A stretch of 50,795 nt of DNA from contig JABXJS010000185.1 in the NCBI GenBank assembly GCA_013538855.1, positions 1-50,795 of the forward strand. Direction: 5' to 3'. This document shows, one piece after another, positions 28,920-43,262 of this stretch. Position numbers and translations under genes: made by a program. The notes beneath the pieces are model-generated. The model was not told the origin of the DNA. It did no database searches and saw only the letters and a program-made list of their open reading frames with translations. This stretch comes from Herpetosiphonaceae bacterium. Lineage in GTDB: Bacteria; Chloroflexota; Chloroflexia; Chloroflexales; Herpetosiphonaceae. The stretch's first letter is position 1, and every line of letters begins with the position of its first letter.

Positions 28920-31900
28920 ATGGCTTTAAGCGCCTTACGAGCGATGACTCGCCTGCTGATGGTCATCGTGCTGGTCCTTCCTCTTGGCGTAGCAGCACAA
29001 AATCCCGCAACTGTATCGAGCACCTCGACACAAAAGATTTTGGTAAACACCGCCAACACAGATGCGCTTGCCGCTGTGCTTGGGCAAGGTGGTACGCTGC
29101 TCGCTGACTATGGAACGTTCTCACTCTGGCGTGTACCCACGTCAAAAGTCTCCCAACTAACCGCTTCATCGCAGATCTCCATCGCACAACACGATATGGA
29201 CACCGTTTATCTTCGTGATGGTGCGATTGATACGCGTGCCAATACGACGCCGAACGTTGCCGCTGATCTTCAGCAGCTGCGCACGGCCGAAGCGCAATTC
29301 TGGATGATCCAATTTGTGGGTCCAGTTAAAGATGATTGGCTGAAGGCAGTGACGAAGACCGGCGCAGAGCTGGTTATGTACATGCCCTCCAACGCCTATG
29401 TGGTCTGGGCCGACGGCCAGGCTGTCAAAGGGCTACAGGACATGGCCGCAGCCGACAAGTTTGTCCAGTGGGCTGGGCCGTATCATCCGGCCTATCGCAT
29501 TGCGCCGAACCTGCTGAGCGCGGCCAACGCGGTTAAGACCAACCCGACCACCAAGGTGACGGTGCAGTTCTACACCACCGCCGCAACCCAGCGGTCGCTT
29601 GAGAAGCTGTTGAGCGCCAGCAGCGCCGTGTACAAAGCGCCGTCGAAGGTGCTTGGCTTCACGGATGTGACGGTGGAAGTGCCGACAGCGATGCTCAAAG
29701 AGCTGGCCCGCCAGGCCGATGTTTTCAATGTCGAGTCCTGGGGTGCGCCTGAGAAGCTTGATGAGCGCCAAGGCCAGATTCTGGCTGGCAACATCACCAC
29801 CTCTGGCGGCAAAGTCGTGCCGGCAGGCCCTGGCTACCTAAGCTGGCTGGCCTCGGTGGGCATGCCGACGGACCCGGCCGAGTACCCGATCGTGGACGTG
29901 GTGGACGACGGCCTTGATTCTGGCAATGCCGCAAACATCATTCACCCAGACTTCCATGAGCAGGGCCTTGCCTCTAGTCCCGACCGCGTGGCGTACATTG
30001 GCAACTGTACTGTTGATGCCAACGGCAACGCTGGCGGCGGCGGCCACGGCAACCTGAACGCCGGTATTGTGGCGGCCTTCAACAACCAGAGCGGCTTCCC
30101 GTACATTGATGGGCCAAGCTCGGGGATCAGCGGCGGCTACAACATCGGCGTGGGCATGTCGCCCTACGGCCGTGTGGCGGGCACCAAGATCTTCGCCAAC
30201 GCTGGCTCCTACGATATCTCGGGCTGTGGCGACACGGACGCGGGCGTGGTGGCCGCGAGCTACAACGCTGGCGCGAACCTGACCTCCAACAGCTGGGGCT
30301 GTGGCCCGCCGCTGTGCGGCCCAGGCGGTGCGTATGACGCCTCCTCGCAGGCCTACGACGCCCTGACCCGCGATGCCTCCAGCACCACGCCGGGCAACCA
30401 GCAGATGCTGCACGTCTTCTCGGCTGGCAACTCTGGCCCTAGCTCGGACACGCTGGGCACGCCGGGCACGGCCAAGAACGTCATCGCCGTCGGCGCGACC
30501 GAGAATGTGCGCGACGAGGGCGTGGCCGACGGCTGTAACTCCACCGCCTCGGACAACGCCGACGATATCGCCGGCTTCTCCTCGCGTGGCCCGACCGATG
30601 ATGGGCGCACCAAGCCGGACGTCACCGGCCCTGGCATCCACGTCACCGGCCCCGCCTCGCAGGAGGCAGGCTTTGATGGCACGGGCGTGTGTGGCGCAAG
30701 CGGCAGCGACAACCGGTTCTACCCCGCTGGCCAGACGCTGTACACCTGGTCGTCGGGCACGAGCCACTCGGCTCCGGCCGTGGCTGGCTCGGCATCGCTG
30801 CTCTACACCTACTATCGCCTGAACTACGGCGCGGGCAGCCCGCCCAGCCCAGCGATGCTCAAGGCCTATCTGCTGAACAGCACGCGCTACCTGAACGGCT
30901 CGGGCACTGGCGGCGACCTGCCGACCAACAACCAGGGCTGGGGCGATGTGTACCTGAAGCAGGCCTTTGATGGCACAGCGCGCCTGTTCTTCGATCAGCA
31001 GACCACCTTTGGTGCCACTGGCGAGGACTTTGTGCAGGGTGGTCAGATCACTGACCCATCGAAGCCCTTCCGCGTGACGCTGACCTGGACCGATGCGCCT
31101 GGCTCGACCACCGGCAACGCCTATGTCAACGACCTGAACCTGGAAGTGACTGTTGGCGGCCAGACCTACAAAGGCAACGTCTTCAGCGGAGCCTTCTCGG
31201 CCACCGGCGGCAGCGCCGACACCAAGAACAACGTCGAGAGCGTCACCATCCCGGCTGGCGTTACCGGCAGCTTCGAGGTGCGCGTGGTTGCGGCCAACAT
31301 CGCTGGCGACGGCGTGCCTGGCAACGCAGACACGACCGACCAGGACTTCGCGCTGACGATCTACAACGCCGCGACCGGCCCGACCGGCGCGCTGACCGGC
31401 TTTGTGCGCCATCCATCGAGCGCCCCAGTTGCTGGCGCGCGTGTGGCTGCCGACACTGGCCCGGCGACGCTGAGCAACGCCACTGGCGCGTACACACTGC
31501 TGCTGCCAGTTGGCACCTACACTGTCACGGCGAGCCTGCTGGGCTACGGCGACTCGGACACCGTGACCAACATCAACATCACCGAGAACATGACGGTGAC
31601 GCAGGACTTTACCCTTGAGGGTGGTGCGCTCACCGGCGTGGTTCGTGATGCCTTTACGCCGAGCCAGCCAATCGTCGGCGCGATTGTGACCACCGGCTTG
31701 GTGACCACAACGACCGACGCGAACGGCATGTACAGCTTCCCGCAGGCCCCGGTTGGCTCGGTCACCGTGACCGCCTCGGCCGTCGGCTATGCGCCGCAGA
31801 GCGACAGCACAACCATCTCCGATAGCATGACCGCCACGCTTGATCTGGTGCTGCCAGGCGGTGCTGTGGCCGGTCAGGTGACGGATGCGATCAACGGCGC

Positions 31901-34900
31901 GCCAATCGCTGGCGCACGGGTTGAAGCACCTGGGCGCGTCTTCACCACCGACGCCAACGGGCGCTACGCCTTCCGCTCGCCGCCAGGCGCAATCAGCCTG
32001 CAGGTGAGCAAGGTTGGCTATGCCACCGTTGGGGTCAATCCTGCGATCACCAATGGCATGACGGTAACCCAGGATGTGGCGCTGACGCCAGAGTTTGGTG
32101 TCGACCCAGCCATGCTGAGCCGCACCTTCACCTTCGGCGATGCCCCGATCACGGACACAGCGGCGATGACGCTGACCAACACAAGCAGCCAGGTGTTCAC
32201 CTACACCCTGCGTGAGGTGTCCGGTGGCTTTACGCCACTGCGCCCGACCGCTGGGGACGTGCTGCTGGTCAACAACGATACCGATGCGACGACCGCCGCC
32301 CGCACGGCGCTGGAGAGCAACGGCTACACCGTCACAACCGAAACGGCGGCGGTATTCGATGCTGAGCCGGTATCATCGCTGCTCAACTACGTGGCTGTGG
32401 TGTACGCTGGCAATCCAGGCACAAACAGTCGCACCAAGCTGCAAGAGTACCTGGACAACAACGGTAGGCTGTTGATCGCCGACAACGATCTGGGCTTCAG
32501 CAACCGCACTACGCCGTTGTACACCACCTACCTTGATGCAACCTACGGTGGCGATGATCCTGGCGCTAGCAATCGCGCGCTGACCGGTGAAGACATCATG
32601 GCTGGTGTGAATGCACCGTCAGTTGATCCATTCCCCGACTACTACACGCCTGGCGCTAGCTCGGTGACGATCTTCCGCTATGGCAACAACTCCGTGGGCG
32701 GATCGCGCATCACCCGCAACGGCTACAAGGCGATCTACATCGCTACTGACTACGACAGCCTTGGCACTGCGGCCACAGGTGAGCCAATCGAAGCCACGAT
32801 TATGCAGAAGGCCATGATGTGGCTCACTGGCGGCGCTGCGCAGGACAACATTCCATGGCTCAAGGAAGACCCAACCGGTGGCCCCATCGCTGGCAACAGC
32901 GACCAGAATGTTGATATCGGATGGTACCCCGATGTGGTTGATCAGCCGGGCACCTACAACGCCCTGCTGCGCTTCAACTACACGACTGTGCCAACCATCA
33001 CCATCAACGTTCCGGTGACCATGACCGTGCTGCCATCGGCCAGCCAGGCCGGCATCACCGGCGTGGTCTCTTCCACCGGCCTCTGCGACATGGATCTGCA
33101 GCCGCTGGTTGGGGCAACGGTGACGATCACCGCCACTGGCGGCTTCAGCACGACCGTCCAGACCGACGCCACCGGCAAGTACACCTACTACACGCCGGGC
33201 AGCGACACCTACTACGTCACGGTTGAGGCCGAGAACCACCTGGTCACCACTGAGATGGTCGCTGCGACCGCTGGCTCAGTGACGACCCAGAACTTCACCC
33301 TGCGCCTGCAGTCCGCGTGTCTGAGCGTTGATCCCGACAGCCTGTCGGCAACCTTGGAGCTTGGTCAGCAGGTTACGCAGACCGTTGTGGTCTCCAATAC
33401 AGGTGCCACACCGGCCAGCTATCAGGTGATCGAAGCGAGCGGCAACAGCTCGTCGCCAGACGCCTCTGGCTACTTCTGGACCGAGCAGCGGATTGCGTGG
33501 GTCGATGCCAGCGATGGCACCTCGCAGAATCCTGCCGACGACGGTGAGTTCAACGTTACGCTGCCCTTCACCTTCCCGTTCTACGGGACGATGACCAGCA
33601 ATATTCGCGTTGGCAACAACGGCGCGATTATGGTTGGGGCGACGACTGGTGATGTTGGCTATCAAAACGCTGATCTGACGCTGGCCTCCTCGCCCAACAA
33701 CTTCATTGCCCCGTTCTGGGATGACATGAGCTCGCAGAGCGGCGAAGTCTACGTCAAGAACATCCCGACGCCGCTCAATCAGGCGACGATTATCCAGTGG
33801 AACAATCGCCCGCACTACAACGGCGTTGGTTCCGGAACCTACCAGGCTGTGCTGTACGAGAACGGCAACATCCTGTTCCAGTACCTCGACACCGACTTTG
33901 GCGATAGCGGCTTTGACGCTGGTGCCAGCGCCTCGGTGGGTATCCGCGGCACTGGTGCGGCGAATGCCTCGCAGTACTCGTTCAACCAGCCTGCTGTTGG
34001 CAACAACACGGCTGTCTGCTTCGTGCGCCCTGGCAACCCAAGCTGTACCGATATCGCCTGGCTGATGGAGACGCCAGATCAGGTGAGCGGTCAGGTTGGC
34101 ACGCCGCCAAGCGCGCAGATGATCGATGTGATGTTCGATGCCTCGCAGGTCAGCCAGCCGGGCACTTACACCGCAACACTCGTCCTGAGCCACGATGGCC
34201 TGCAGAATCCAGTCAGCTTCCCGGTGACCATGACGGTTACCCTGCCGTCTGGCTCTGGAATCATCGAGGGTACCGTTATGGGCCTGGAGGCCTGTGACAC
34301 GCCTGGTATGCCGCTGAGTGGCGCGATGGTGACGCTGGGCACGACCCCGCCACAGTCCGACACAACCGACGCGAGCGGCTACTACAACTTTGTCGCTGAC
34401 AGCGGCACCTACACCATGACGGTCTCGGCGGCGGGCTACGTCTCCAAGACGATCAGCGTTGTGGTTCCCGATGCCGCAACTGGCACCCAGGATGTGGAGC
34501 TACAGCTCGAGGCTCCGTGTGGCGATGTCTCGCCCACGAGCCTGAGCAGCACGCAGGCCCCGGATACAACCATGGATCGCACGCTGACGGTGGTCAACAC
34601 TGGCACCGCTGCGCTCGACTGGTCGATTCAGGAGCAGGCACCGCGTCCCGCTGCCGCAAACAGCGCGCCCGCTGTGCGCAAGCCTGTTGCCAGCCGCCCA
34701 GATGCTGCCAGCCTACGGCAGACGGCACCGACGGCGGATGTGCTGCAGGATGGTGGCTTTGAGGCGACCAACGCTTCGAACTTCACCAACCCATTCTGGG
34801 CACAGTCCTCGACCAACTACGGCACGGTGATTTGCAACGCCTCCTGCGCAGGCAGCGGCACAGTGCTGCCGCACACCGGCACCTTCTTCGTCTGGTTCGG

Positions 34901-35726
34901 CGGCATCCAGGCTGCCAACCCAACCGAAGTTGGCTTTGTGGAGCAGGATGTGCAGATTCCAGTCGGCACAGCATCGCTGAGCTTCTGGCTGCAGATCGAG
35001 GCTCCAACCCAGCGCCCGAATGACTATGTCCGCGCCAAGATCGACAACACGATTGTCTTCACGGCAACGACATCGGATGCGGCCACCTACGCCGACTACA
35101 CGCAGGTGAATGTGCCAATCGACGCCTTCGCCGATGGCGGCACCCACACCGTGCGCTTCGAGTCGCTGGTGGAAACTGGCGGTAACTCCAACTACTTCCT
35201 TGATGATGTCATGCTTGACTCGCAGGGCAGCCCGTGCTCGCCCGATGCGCTGAGCTGGGTGTCGGTCAACCCGACCAGCGGCTCGGTCCCTGCCAACGGG
35301 TCGTCTGACATCACCGTCACCTTCGACTCAACGGGCTTGGCCGAGGGCACCTACACTGGCAACCTCTGCTTCAGCTCGAACGATGTGCTCAACCCGCAGG
35401 TGATCATCCCGGTTTCGTTGACCGTGACCAACAATCCGCCGACCGATGGGACGATGCAGGGCACCGTCACCAGCCAGGGCACACCGCTCGCTGGTGCAAC
35501 CATCACGGCCGTTGGCTCGACAACGCTGACCACGACGACCTCGCTGTCTGGCACCTATAGCATGATCATGCCCGCTGGCACCTACACGGTCACAGCGTCC
35601 ATGCCCGGCTATGCGCCAAGCACGCAGGTGGTCACGATGACTGCCGGTGATACGGTTACTGTGGACTTCGATCTACAGCCAAGCGCGACGGAGAACAAGA
35701 TCTTCTTGCCCATCGTGGTCAAGTAG
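28920..35726 (+). CDS. Very large secreted S8 (subtilisin-like) serine protease with multiple carboxypeptidase-regulatory-like domains
   Basis: A 2268-aa secreted protein. A signal peptide (cleavage near AAQN, about res 27) is followed by a propeptide-like region of about 290 residues. The S8 catalytic domain has Asp329 (VVDDGLD), His376 (GGHGNLN), oxyanion Asn504 (SAGNSG) and Ser615 (GTSHSAPAVAG). A P-domain-like beta module follows (about 690-820). At least six carboxypeptidase-regulatory-like repeats start near 823, 901, 981, 1377, 1779 and 2177, each with a GxVxD...GxYxF...GTYTVTxSxxGY pattern. They are interspersed with beta-sandwich modules and a jelly-roll-like module near 1940-2100. 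The protein ends in NKIFLPIVVK. It probably degrades extracellular protein or polymers. Codons are strongly biased to C endings, suggesting high expression. Confidence 0.92.
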   Translation: MALSALRAMTRLLMVIVLVLPLGVAAQNPATVSSTSTQKILVNTANTDALAAVLGQGGTLLADYGTFSLWRVPTSKVSQLTASSQISIAQHDMDTVYLRDGAIDTRANTTPNVAADLQQLRTAEAQFWMIQFVGPVKDDWLKAVTKTGAELVMYMPSNAYVVWADGQAVKGLQDMAAADKFVQWAGPYHPAYRIAPNLLSAANAVKTNPTTKVTVQFYTTAATQRSLEKLLSASSAVYKAPSKVLGFTDVTVEVPTAMLKELARQADVFNVESWGAPEKLDERQGQILAGNITTSGGKVVPAGPGYLSWLASVGMPTDPAEYPIVDVVDDGLDSGNAANIIHPDFHEQGLASSPDRVAYIGNCTVDANGNAGGGGHGNLNAGIVAAFNNQSGFPYIDGPSSGISGGYNIGVGMSPYGRVAGTKIFANAGSYDISGCGDTDAGVVAASYNAGANLTSNSWGCGPPLCGPGGAYDASSQAYDALTRDASSTTPGNQQMLHVFSAGNSGPSSDTLGTPGTAKNVIAVGATENVRDEGVADGCNSTASDNADDIAGFSSRGPTDDGRTKPDVTGPGIHVTGPASQEAGFDGTGVCGASGSDNRFYPAGQTLYTWSSGTSHSAPAVAGSASLLYTYYRLNYGAGSPPSPAMLKAYLLNSTRYLNGSGTGGDLPTNNQGWGDVYLKQAFDGTARLFFDQQTTFGATGEDFVQGGQITDPSKPFRVTLTWTDAPGSTTGNAYVNDLNLEVTVGGQTYKGNVFSGAFSATGGSADTKNNVESVTIPAGVTGSFEVRVVAANIAGDGVPGNADTTDQDFALTIYNAATGPTGALTGFVRHPSSAPVAGARVAADTGPATLSNATGAYTLLLPVGTYTVTASLLGYGDSDTVTNINITENMTVTQDFTLEGGALTGVVRDAFTPSQPIVGAIVTTGLVTTTTDANGMYSFPQAPVGSVTVTASAVGYAPQSDSTTISDSMTATLDLVLPGGAVAGQVTDAINGAPIAGARVEAPGRVFTTDANGRYAFRSPPGAISLQVSKVGYATVGVNPAITNGMTVTQDVALTPEFGVDPAMLSRTFTFGDAPITDTAAMTLTNTSSQVFTYTLREVSGGFTPLRPTAGDVLLVNNDTDATTAARTALESNGYTVTTETAAVFDAEPVSSLLNYVAVVYAGNPGTNSRTKLQEYLDNNGRLLIADNDLGFSNRTTPLYTTYLDATYGGDDPGASNRALTGEDIMAGVNAPSVDPFPDYYTPGASSVTIFRYGNNSVGGSRITRNGYKAIYIATDYDSLGTAATGEPIEATIMQKAMMWLTGGAAQDNIPWLKEDPTGGPIAGNSDQNVDIGWYPDVVDQPGTYNALLRFNYTTVPTITINVPVTMTVLPSASQAGITGVVSSTGLCDMDLQPLVGATVTITATGGFSTTVQTDATGKYTYYTPGSDTYYVTVEAENHLVTTEMVAATAGSVTTQNFTLRLQSACLSVDPDSLSATLELGQQVTQTVVVSNTGATPASYQVIEASGNSSSPDASGYFWTEQRIAWVDASDGTSQNPADDGEFNVTLPFTFPFYGTMTSNIRVGNNGAIMVGATTGDVGYQNADLTLASSPNNFIAPFWDDMSSQSGEVYVKNIPTPLNQATIIQWNNRPHYNGVGSGTYQAVLYENGNILFQYLDTDFGDSGFDAGASASVGIRGTGAANASQYSFNQPAVGNNTAVCFVRPGNPSCTDIAWLMETPDQVSGQVGTPPSAQMIDVMFDASQVSQPGTYTATLVLSHDGLQNPVSFPVTMTVTLPSGSGIIEGTVMGLEACDTPGMPLSGAMVTLGTTPPQSDTTDASGYYNFVADSGTYTMTVSAAGYVSKTISVVVPDAATGTQDVELQLEAPCGDVSPTSLSSTQAPDTTMDRTLTVVNTGTAALDWSIQEQAPRPAAANSAPAVRKPVASRPDAASLRQTAPTADVLQDGGFEATNASNFTNPFWAQSSTNYGTVICNASCAGSGTVLPHTGTFFVWFGGIQAANPTEVGFVEQDVQIPVGTASLSFWLQIEAPTQRPNDYVRAKIDNTIVFTATTSDAATYADYTQVNVPIDAFADGGTHTVRFESLVETGGNSNYFLDDVMLDSQGSPCSPDALSWVSVNPTSGSVPANGSSDITVTFDSTGLAEGTYTGNLCFSSNDVLNPQVIIPVSLTVTNNPPTDGTMQGTVTSQGTPLAGATITAVGSTTLTTTTSLSGTYSMIMPAGTYTVTASMPGYAPSTQVVTMTAGDTVTVDFDLQPSATENKIFLPIVVK

Positions 35727-40774: not shown

Positions 40775-40812
40775 CTTGACAAGCGTTAAAGATTCTTGTA
40801 CTCTCTGCATAC
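40775..40812 (+). promoter_or_regulatory. Promoter P1 of the NHLP-type peptide genes
   Basis: TTGACA (40776-40781), a 17-bp spacer and TACTCT (40799-40804), followed by CTGCATAC. About 31 of the 38 positions agree with the second promoter at 41583-41620. A leader of about 130 bases follows before the first peptide gene; I saw no other gene in it. Confidence 0.75.
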
Positions 40813-40941
40813 ACGCAATCCGCGTGCACCCCGAGATGAGCTAAGGACTAGGAGAAGGGTGTAAACCTAGCATTATTCTTGCTGAATGATAGGTGTACAC
40901 TCCTGCGGCTTTTTATCTACACACAAAAGACAGGAGACTGT

Positions 40942-41151
40942 ATGAACGCAGAGTTCGAACGCCTGCTTGGCCGTGCCGTGCGCGATGCTGAATTTCGCAC
41001 GCAGCTGTTGACCGATCCTGCCAGCGCCACCGCTGAGTTCCAGCTGACGCCCGCAGATCGCGAGCGGATTATGCACGCCCTAGCCAAAGCCGAACAGAAT
41101 GACATCCAGGCAGCCTTCCAAGGCTCCACAACGCAGGGCTTCTGGCTCTAG
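40942..41151 (+). CDS. NHLP-clan (Os1348-like) small peptide 1, 69 aa
   Basis: A 69-aa protein of the nitrile-hydratase-leader-peptide clan. The conserved leader-like part is FERLLGRAVRDAEFRTQLL followed by TDPASA, then a short linker and a second amphipathic helix (LTPADRERIMHALAKAEQND). It ends in GFWL. The family is known from RiPP (ribosomal peptide) systems in which the leader recruits modifying enzymes. Here there is no cysteine, few core residues and no maturase gene in the window, so RiPP function is not shown. The start follows AGGAG. Probably in one transcript with peptide 2. Confidence 0.7.
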   Translation: MNAEFERLLGRAVRDAEFRTQLLTDPASATAEFQLTPADRERIMHALAKAEQNDIQAAFQGSTTQGFWL

Positions 41152-41204
41152 CAGGTAGCACTCTTATTGACCTCTATCACCCATATAGCTTTAAGGAGGT
41201 TTCG

Positions 41205-41411
41205 GTGAACGTAGAATTCGAGCGCTTGCTCGGTCGGGCCATTCGCGATACGGAGTTCCGCACCTTGCTGCTGACCAACCCTTCCGCTGCCACCGAGGGC
41301 TTCAAGCTCTCCGCAGCAGAGCTTGAGCGCATTCAGCATGCCCTGGCCAAAGCGGAGCAGGGCGAGATCAATGCTGCGTTTGAGGAGCCAAATGCCGCGC
41401 TGTGGTTCTAG
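41205..41411 (+). CDS. NHLP-clan (Os1348-like) small peptide 2, 68 aa
   Basis: A paralogue of peptide 1 with the same layout: FERLLGRAIRDTEFRTLLL-TNPSAA, then LSAAELERIQHALAKAEQGE and the terminal ALWF. The start is GTG at 41205, directly after a strong AAGGAGG. It lies 53 bp downstream of peptide 1 without a promoter or terminator between them, so they look like a tandem duplication within one transcript. The shared terminator is about 110 bp further on. No core cysteines. Confidence 0.7.
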   Translation: MNVEFERLLGRAIRDTEFRTLLLTNPSAATEGFKLSAAELERIQHALAKAEQGEINAAFEEPNAALWF

Positions 41412-41520
41412 TGTTCTAAAGCTCAATTGCGCTTAGATATAAGCTAGGGCAAGCAAATTCACTCAATGTTCCTTAACTCACAGTACATAATCATCTCTAT
41501 CATTCTGCTTATGTAAGCCG

Positions 41521-41555
41521 AATGCAACCATAGACACTAATCCTATGGTTGCATT
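41521..41555 (+). terminator. Terminator after peptide 2
   Basis: A 13-bp perfect stem aatgcaaccatag / ctatggttgcatt with a 9-base loop, followed by TGGCTT. Its stem core CAACCATAG recurs in the hairpin after peptide 3. The rest of 41412-41583 is AT-rich, with no gene seen. Confidence 0.65.
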
Positions 41556-41582
41556 TGGCTTAACGAGCGTTGTGTAGTCGCT

Positions 41583-41620
41583 CTTGACAAGCCTATAAGA
41601 TTATCGTACCCTCAGCATAC
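41583..41620 (+). promoter_or_regulatory. Promoter P2 of the third NHLP-type peptide gene
   Basis: TTGACA (41584-41589), a 17-bp spacer and TACCCT (41607-41612), then CAGCATAC. It is a near copy of P1, with identical TTGACAAGC, AAGATT and GCATAC blocks at the same positions. Confidence 0.75.
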
Positions 41621-41669
41621 CAAAGCGCGCTATGGTACCCTTTAGTCTCACTATCTGATAGGAGAAAGT

Positions 41670-41885
41670 ATGAGCGCTGATTTCGAGCGTTTGATCGGCC
41701 GTGCTGTTCTAGATGATGATTTTCGAGCAAAGTTAGTAGCTGATCCCGAGGGTACGGTTAAGAACGCTGGCTTCTCGCTGTCCGCAGATGAGCTAGATCG
41801 AGTGAAGAAAGCAGCTGAGAGCGCCAAGACCAATAATTCCCTAAGCAGCTTTGATACAATGAAGAGTAGTGGTCTTTGGCTATAA
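41670..41885 (+). CDS. NHLP-clan (Os1348-like) small peptide 3, 71 aa
   Basis: The more diverged third paralogue: FERLIGRAVLDDDFRAKLV-ADPEGTVKNAGFSLS, then ADELDRVKKAAESAK and the terminal SGLWL. It has its own promoter (P2) and its own perfect-palindrome terminator, and its DNA is clearly less GC-rich than peptides 1 and 2. The start follows AGGAG. Unknown function; leader-like part as in RiPP precursors but no cysteine and a very short putative core. The next gene is a membrane phosphatase. Confidence 0.7.
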   Translation: MSADFERLIGRAVLDDDFRAKLVADPEGTVKNAGFSLSADELDRVKKAAESAKTNNSLSSFDTMKSSGLWL

Positions 41886-41910
41886 CTAAGCTGAATAGAT
41901 GATTAAGTTT

Positions 41911-41944
41911 GATACAACCATAGATAGCTATCTATGGTTGTATC
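41911..41944. terminator. Perfect 34-base palindrome, terminator after peptide 3
   Basis: Two 17-base arms (41911-41927 and 41928-41944) are exact complements, and TTATTTT follows. It shares the CAACCATAG/CTATGGTTG core with the terminator at 41521. The longer reading frame of the phosphatase would start inside its right arm (ATG 41934). Confidence 0.8.
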
Positions 41945-41960
41945 TTATTTTGATATTTGT

Positions 41961-43262
41961 ATGTTAGAAATTGATAAAATTCTACTGTCACTCCAAGAAG
42001 AAAATGATCTTCAAAGAAGATCGTTGTTTTTGCAGTATATTAATAACTTTGTTGTTATATTCTTAGCAATAACGCTAATACTCGATTTAGTAGCTAGATC
42101 TATCGCTTTTTTTTTGATAATCCTATTAATGCTTTCATTATTTGTATCAGTTCACTTTATTAATAAGAGAGGAAAAGTTGTCTTAGCAACAACATTATTT
42201 ACTGTTTTTTTTAATCTGTGCCTATATGTAGTATTTGTATCGCAGTTTATTTTTGGGGGAAATCCACTAGCATATGGAATGATCCTTGCACTAACCTGTC
42301 TTGTCGCTTCTTATTTAATTGGTAATACAGGCATAATAGCCTCAGCCTTAGTAAGTGTTAGCGTTGTTGTTTCATGTTTTATCCTCTTTGAAGGATTGCA
42401 GTTCTCATTTTTTATCAATGCTTTACCAATTATCGGCTTTATCCTGCTGCTCTCGCTGGTCTCGTGGTTTCATCAGCGCACGCTTAAGCGTGCGCAGCAG
42501 CGCTACGAGGTGGCCCAGCATCAGCTGATGCGCGATGCTATGCTGCGCCAGGAGGTCGTCATCGCCCGCGACCTGCAGCGCCAGCTGTACCCCGACCCGC
42601 CGCAGCAGATTCAGCGCGTCTCCTTCAGCGTTTGCGCGCTGCCTGCGCTGGAGACTAGCGGCGATCTCTACGATTTTATTCAGCTCGATGAGCGGCGCAT
42701 TGGCATTGTCATCGCCGATGTGACCGGCAAGAGCATGGCGGCGGCGCTCGTGATGGTGATGGCACGCTCGAGCTTCCGCTCCGAGGGCCGTAATGTTGTC
42801 GATCCGGGCCAGGTGCTCAGCAACGTTAACTCAATCTTACATAATGACTCATCGGTCAAGCAAATGATCACCGCTTGGTATGGTGTGCTCGATGTACAGT
42901 CGATGACGCTGGTGTTTGCCAACGCCGGCCACCCCTTCCCCCTGCTTTACCGCGATGGTCAGACGCTGGAGCTAGAGGCGCTTGGCCTGCCGCTGCGCGC
43001 GACGCCGGGCCTGACCTACGAGAGCGCCACCGTCCAGCTGCTGCCAGGCGATCATCTGCTGCTGCTCACCGATGGCGTGATCGAGGCGATGAATGCCCAG
43101 CGTGAGCTGTTCGGCTACGAGCGGCTCACGCAGGTGTTTACTGCCTCGGTCGATGGCGCGACCGCAACGGCGCTTGAGCTTGTGCAAGACGAAATCACCC
43201 GCTTTTCGGCCCCCGCTCCCCAGGCCGACGATATCACCATGGTGCTGGTCAGCATCCACTAG
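41961..43262 (+). CDS. Membrane-anchored SpoIIE/PP2C-type serine phosphatase with AT-rich membrane domain
   Basis: A 433-aa protein. About res 20-165 hold five or six transmembrane helices; a short coiled stalk (RAQQRYEVAQHQLMRDAML) then leads to a SpoIIE-like PP2C phosphatase domain. Motifs are SGDLYDF, IADVTGKSMAAALVM, NAGHPFPLLYRDG, LLTDGVIEAMN and DDITMVLV, with the metal aspartates present. Such proteins act on anti-sigma or anti-anti-sigma partners. Base composition changes abruptly near 42440: the membrane half is very AT-rich, the catalytic half very GC-rich. No ribosome-binding site precedes either 41961 or the alternative ATG 41934, and the start is uncertain. Its stop overlaps that of the convergent kinase gene. 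Confidence 0.82.
   Translation: MLEIDKILLSLQEENDLQRRSLFLQYINNFVVIFLAITLILDLVARSIAFFLIILLMLSLFVSVHFINKRGKVVLATTLFTVFFNLCLYVVFVSQFIFGGNPLAYGMILALTCLVASYLIGNTGIIASALVSVSVVVSCFILFEGLQFSFFINALPIIGFILLLSLVSWFHQRTLKRAQQRYEVAQHQLMRDAMLRQEVVIARDLQRQLYPDPPQQIQRVSFSVCALPALETSGDLYDFIQLDERRIGIVIADVTGKSMAAALVMVMARSSFRSEGRNVVDPGQVLSNVNSILHNDSSVKQMITAWYGVLDVQSMTLVFANAGHPFPLLYRDGQTLELEALGLPLRATPGLTYESATVQLLPGDHLLLLTDGVIEAMNAQRELFGYERLTQVFTASVDGATATALELVQDEITRFSAPAPQADDITMVLVSIH

Follow-up and report, generated by a model that had tools for sequence, protein, structure and literature searches.

The 50,795-nucleotide window analysed here (contig JABXJS010000185.1 of a Herpetosiphonaceae bacterium, phylum Chloroflexota) contains a locus in which three small NHLP-clan peptide genes are followed by the gene for a TM (transmembrane) SpoIIE/PP2C-type phosphatase, and comparative sequence analysis makes it probable, in our judgement, that this locus is a module of peptide signal and phosphatase receptor. 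The case is built on the pairing of the two genes, the orthology of the phosphatases, their perfect co-occurrence with the peptides, the joint absence of both at one syntenic site, the co-variation of peptide tail and receptor sensor, and the swapping of alleles between genomes. The initial annotation of this DNA had described the peptides, but had overlooked the co-evolving phosphatase gene downstream, which we regard as decisive. The features of the locus are as follows.

40776..40812, + strand, promoter 1: TTGACA, 17-nt spacer, TACTCT; serves the cassette of peptides 1 and 2
40942..41151, + strand, peptide 1: NHLP clan, 69 aa, tail TTQGFWL; NF038399, 45.4 bits
41205..41411, + strand, peptide 2: NHLP clan, 68 aa, GTG start, tail NAALWF; NF038399, 46 bits
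41514..41562, + strand, hairpin after peptide 2: 20-bp stem, no T-run; z −8.6
41584..41620, + strand, promoter 2: TTGACA, 17-nt spacer, TACCCT
41670..41885, + strand, peptide 3: NHLP clan, 71 aa, tail TMK-SSGLWL, adjoins the phosphatase gene; NF038399, 64.3 bits
41911..41944, + strand, intercistronic hairpin between peptide 3 and phosphatase: perfect inverted repeat; z −7.1
41961..43262, + strand, TM SpoIIE/PP2C-type phosphatase, proposed receptor: 433 aa; PF07228, 163.8 bits
41961..42470, + strand, predicted six-helix membrane sensor domain: about residues 1–170; AlphaFold helices
42687..43256, + strand, SpoIIE phosphatase catalytic domain: residues 243–432; PF07228 and PP2C structure matches

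The peptides and the phosphatase

All three peptides score above the curated cut-off of 40 bits for NF038399 (Os1348 family, NHLP clan), and beyond them no other member above this cut-off was found in the 6.3-Mb genome. This HMM search bears out the earlier description of NHLP-type peptides of 69, 68 and 71 aa with Trp-containing tails (GFWL, ALWF and GLWL in peptides 1, 2 and 3 respectively), and the stated lack of Cys likewise holds for all three. In addition, PF14407 (Frankia_peptide, gathering score 48) gave 42.9, 49.4 and 66.2 bits for peptides 1, 2 and 3. Peptide 3, in which Trp70 is invariant (16 homologues), is proposed as the signal precursor. Its AlphaFold model (pLDDT 78) is a helical bundle with low confidence at the last residues, and the best PDB match of this model is Os1348 (6lk7), with a probability of 1.00 and a TMq of 0.63, but an E-value of 0.07. 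A Lys or Arg residue lies three to five residues N-terminal of the Trp in about half of the homologous tails, and none is found close to the Trp in peptides 1 and 2, in copy 2 of the relative G003 or in the Chloroflexus peptides.

The phosphatase gene starts approximately 17 nt 3′ of the second hairpin, in the same unit as the peptides. PF07228 (SpoIIE) is its only domain match, with no ComP-type histidine kinase or ComA regulator. The AlphaFold model (pLDDT 87) has six membrane-length helices (residues 2–45, 48–69, 73–97, 102–119, 122–144 and 148–209), the last of which is a long helix that runs into the PP2C domain, and this domain matches the structures of RssB, SpoIIE and SiaA. As the genome yields 14 SpoIIE matches, the adjacency of peptide and phosphatase would not be expected by chance. 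Phosphatases of the SpoIIE type govern switches in stress response, development and biofilm formation, and the known role of the class is the dephosphorylation of STAS-type proteins; to our knowledge, the ligands of their membrane sensors are mostly unknown. SpoIIE itself is switched via a long regulatory helix that acts on switch helices (PMC5468089), and an analogous long-helix route is therefore plausible in the window phosphatase. The catalytic domain is thus of the kind found in SiaA, SpoIIE and RsbU-type PP2C phosphatases; what sets this one apart is its six-helix membrane sensor and its pairing with a peptide gene.

Pairing of peptide and phosphatase across the order

Among 61 genomes of the order, 18 carry both a Trp-tailed peptide (an NHLP peptide with Trp within its last three residues) and an orthologous TM phosphatase, and both are absent from the other 43. 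Full-length orthologues scored 570–732 bits against the phosphatase profile in 18 of the 61 genomes, with the next best SpoIIE protein at 283 bits, and in every case (18/18) the gene of the orthologue lies downstream of that of a Trp-tailed peptide, with both on one strand. The outer flanks of the pair vary between families. Such co-occurrence is partly expected, because adjacent genes are inherited together. In G041 (Chloroflexus), the conserved neighbours lie 213 bp apart, and the peptide, the phosphatase and the third gene of the Chloroflexus operons (see below) are all missing; G014 and G051 (genus g7), which are kin of carriers, also lack both peptide and phosphatase. The NHLP peptide of G048, cut by the contig end with its tail unread, follows a different partner protein, and this genome has no receptor orthologue.

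These data bear directly on the idea that the peptides are classical RiPP precursors whose maturation enzymes are unlinked, the proximity of the phosphatase being incidental. We consider this very improbable: the genome-wide check for maturases proposed earlier did find two LANC-like and two YcaO proteins away from the locus, which would fit, but none of the three peptides contains Cys, and it would be left unexplained why peptide and phosphatase are paired without exception in 18 genomes and why the peptide co-varies with the sensor.

Interchangeable types within one genus

Six genomes of genus g3, which is probably Herpetosiphon (G002, G004, G005, G006, G007 and G008), were aligned over 6.8 kb. 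Nucleotide identity per 100 nt is about 70–100% nearly throughout. A sharply bounded variable block of approximately 620 nt lies at about +160 to +780 nt, counted from the start of the peptide; within it, pairs of different type share 26–64% identity, against 75–98% in the bounding flanks. This block covers the tail of the peptide, the hairpin between the two genes and the membrane sensor, and protein identity is accordingly 86–100% in the leader, 16–71% in the tail, 22–88% in the sensor (22–41% between types) and 93–100% in the linker and catalytic part. By block, the genomes fall into the types (G004, G006), (G005, G008) and (G002, G007), whereas the flanks group (G002, G004, G006) against (G005, G007, G008), and the block and flank trees are mutually rejected (AU test, P = 6e-9 and 9e-103). 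On these alignments, the three types do not follow the species tree.

Sensor dS between types is 1.4–2.9, compared with 0.3–0.8 in the catalytic part of the same gene; for the same-type pairs G004–G006 and G005–G008, each of which falls within one flank clade, sensor dS is approximately 0.45 (versus 0.3–0.4) with a dN/dS of approximately 0.15. Since relaxed constraint is unable to raise dS, the types are old functional alleles that have been exchanged; the dS contrast and the tree conflict together ruled out low constraint as an explanation of the hypervariable block. Tail similarity follows sensor similarity in g3 (r 0.90, 11 of 720 permutations) and across all 19 loci (partial r 0.77, with a p-value that is optimistic because the loci are related). 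The sharp allelic block is documented for one genus and six genomes; the Chloroflexus loci diverge more uniformly. As judged from the aligned genes, the variation of tail and sensor in g3 is the pherotype pattern as in comQXP, where ComX has a variable C-terminus with a Trp, and ComP a variable N-terminal membrane domain and a conserved cytoplasmic part (PMC4008528).

Gene coupling and the co-variation of tail and sensor would also fit a bound partner. Under that explanation, which we judge unlikely, the peptide is never released and serves as an intracellular partner whose tail would set the activity of the phosphatase by docking into the TM/linker region, a relationship for which RsbT–RsbU is the model. 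In its favour, Os1348 at full length forms a stable, folded dimer whose C-terminus is flexible (PMC7726476), and no exporter was found at the locus. However, a private pair would give no reason for several ancient interchangeable types across species, and the tail has only 13–16 residues, yet on the receptor side the variation takes in the entire membrane domain.

Matched polymorphism is likewise seen at toxin–immunity loci, and this counts towards a bacteriocin or kin-discrimination peptide that the TM domain senses or gives immunity to, with the phosphatase signalling. NHLP leaders do belong to RiPP precursors, and loss of Os1348 lowers antibiotic activity (PMC7726476). We nevertheless hold this explanation to be quite improbable: the partner is a phosphatase of conserved domain type rather than a small immunity protein, neither a transporter nor a maturation cluster was found, and the catalytic domain is 93–100% conserved, as for a signalling output. 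Of the signal, toxin-like and unlinked RiPP functions that the initial annotation had left side by side, the signal direction is thus supported, and the other two are retained as lower-rated rivals.

Promoters and hairpins

The two promoters, previously described as near-identical at about 31 of 38 positions, are identical at exactly 31 of 38 on recounting, with the common pattern TTGACAAGC-N4-AAGATT-N4-TACNCTCNGCATAC. Allowing up to three mismatches, this pattern occurs in the 6.3-Mb genome at these two sites only and not before unrelated genes, and the duplication of whole cassettes proposed earlier is supported. The core, TTGACA-17-TACNCT, looks like that of an ordinary sigma-70 promoter. 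Two peptide cassettes are likewise present in the relative G003; their promoters share TTGACAAG, the spacing of 17 nt and −10 boxes of the TACC type but have no AAGATT, and the extra promoter blocks are therefore mostly not conserved. On this ground they were rejected as regulator sites, and the suggestion that one regulator reads them is not supported. No second promoter was seen between peptides 1 and 2 of the first cassette.

Both hairpins, with z-scores of −8.6 and −7.1, are real and have the stem core CAACCATAG in common, in agreement with the earlier description. Of the two, only the hairpin at 41911–41944 has a T-rich tail, and that at 41514–41562 is not called terminator-like. The picture of two promoter–peptide–terminator cassettes thus stands as to the cassettes and promoters but not as to the first terminator, and neither do the cassettes end by 41944, as the unit runs on into the phosphatase gene from 41961. 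Hairpins of unrelated sequence occupy the conserved position in most loci (G002–G008, G003, G011, G020, G043 and G053), and the intercistronic hairpin is absent in the main Chloroflexus group. An Rfam search of the hairpins gave sub-threshold eukaryotic miRNA chance matches only. Between promoter 1 and peptide 1 (40855–40912), there is also an imperfect hairpin followed by CTTTTTAT; as a leader hairpin with a U-run it was considered as an attenuator, but with a z-score of −1.0 to −1.4 it barely beats shuffled sequences and is not claimed.

Maturation and possible prenylation of the Trp residue

As noted in the initial annotation, no maturase was seen in the window neighbourhood; neither exporter nor protease was found adjoining the locus, and PADLOC gave no matches. 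In Paenibacillus, the gene for the NHLP precursor PalX, with a conserved C-terminal Trp, is found together with those for a histidine kinase and for PalQ, a Trp prenyltransferase (PMC10853753), and a Gly preceding the Trp improves recognition by PalQ according to a review (PMC13290415); several of the tails here contain GW or GGW. The PalX/PalQ/PalP system of Paenibacillus alvei resembles the present locus in its NHLP-type precursor, conserved C-terminal Trp and adjoining sensor gene (PMC10853753). It differs in having the Trp prenyltransferase in its own cluster, whereas none is linked in the window or in genus g3, in the sensor, which is a histidine kinase there and a TM SpoIIE phosphatase here, and in the Trp position, as one or two residues can come after it here.

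In Chloroflexus operons (L056–L060 and L092–L095), the phosphatase gene is directly followed by a third, unannotated gene for a protein of approximately 305 aa, which is absent in G041. Its invariant residues D82/D86 and Q197/D200/D201/D204/D208 (D-x3-D and Q-x2-DD-x2-D) include the D-x3-D and Q-x2-D-x3-D spacing of D89/D93 and Q197/D200/D204 in PalQ (PMC10853753). No convincing Pfam, NCBIfam or PDB match was found for it, and in hhalign its second Asp motif pairs with that of polyprenyl synthases in a weak match (P 0.037). Because the third gene has isoprenoid-synthase-like motifs and the PalX precursor is prenylated, Trp prenylation is possible; given the weakness of this match and the lack of a conserved candidate in the window's own genome, that the Trp of the tail may be prenylated is only a suggestion. 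A third, divergent PF00348 protein of that genome (G000:C257:7422-8366; L114:1303-2250), with a degenerate second Asp motif (FDDIEA), was rejected as a conserved unlinked ComQ/PalQ, since it has no orthologue and only paralogue-level matches in 60 relatives. Separately, the gene after the phosphatase in L058 (G043) and L097 (G020) has no Pfam match and contains a DxDD-like PPDLDDTACA motif, which is reminiscent of terpene cyclases.

Proposed mechanism and relation to known systems

In the proposed signal–receptor module, the NHLP leader (about residues 1–57) would bear a short variable tail, among whose last three residues is the invariant Trp. This tail would presumably be cut off, possibly at the Lys/Arg before the Trp in about half of the cases, perhaps modified on the Trp, and then released, and the six-helix membrane domain of the phosphatase, whose gene lies directly downstream, would sense it. 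The signal would travel along the long helix that links TM6 to the PP2C domain, and the phosphatase would then remove phosphate from STAS-type partner proteins and so switch gene expression. Cleavage, export, modification, binding, the direction of control and the STAS targets are thus what we infer, and the tail could also act intracellularly on the TM domain. The intercistronic hairpins may hold receptor output below peptide output, and peptides 1 and 2 may be additional signal variants.

Another close parallel is ComQXPA of Bacillus, which has a small precursor with Trp near its most variable region, the C-terminus, and a receptor with a variable multi-TM N-terminus, a conserved cytoplasmic domain and exchangeable types (PMC4008528). 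Unlike ComQXPA, the present locus has an NHLP leader, a phosphatase rather than a kinase output and no linked ComQ-type isoprenyl transferase in the window, and it lies in a different phylum; a ComQXPA census found none outside Firmicutes (PMC4008528). Os1348 of Pseudomonas sp. Os17 (PMC7726476; PDB 6lk7) belongs to the same NF038399 family and fold, but its neighbours are SagB-type, peptidase-like and efflux genes, and no phosphatase receptor is described. The literature searched yielded no published case of a peptide signal read by a SpoIIE-type receptor. Only tentatively, and with doubt outweighing confidence, do we go on from the module to a full ComQXP-like pherotype system outside Firmicutes, in which a membrane SpoIIE-type phosphatase would read an NHLP-leader pheromone whose Trp is prenylated or modified in some other way, with cell–cell communication directly controlling partner switching.

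If the module is real, the co-evolving gene-encoded peptide would be a testable ligand for one receptor class, and peptide quorum sensing would gain a branch with phosphatase output. Chloroflexota, which include filamentous, predatory and phototrophic bacteria, would gain a communication system with recognizable types, and a function would be offered for part of the large number of NHLP peptides that lack a nearby maturase.

Other NHLP peptides and window features

Other NHLP paralogues in the order have as partners a cyclase/AAA/TPR protein, a class IV lanthionine synthetase or a radical SAM C-methyltransferase. A second NHLP peptide, widely conserved in the order (L055:1811-6385 and L011–L040) and ending in ...KSAGRGF, lies directly 3′ of the gene for the cyclase/AAA/TPR protein of approximately 1450 aa, a further pairing of an NHLP peptide with a signalling protein, likewise without a maturase; the best NCBIfam match of this protein, TIGR03903 (TOMM kinase/cyclase fusion), is below cut-off. 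At L046:4165-8359 (G006, genus g3), an NHLP peptide has a radical SAM C-methyltransferase (TIGR03975, over cut-off) on one side and an M3 peptidase on the other, which is a classical RiPP cluster, and at L050:1898-4954 an NHLP-like small peptide adjoins the class IV lanthionine synthetase LanL (NF038150, over cut-off). Elsewhere in the window, positions 28920–35726 encode a 2268-aa subtilase with many carboxypeptidase-regulatory-like domains. The tandem NHLP peptides of L099 have very Trp-rich tails (GWWYIIWGWFSWW and GWWLIILGWFHWW), and the peptides of L105 and L109 end in GWFYWPS and AWLFWP respectively.
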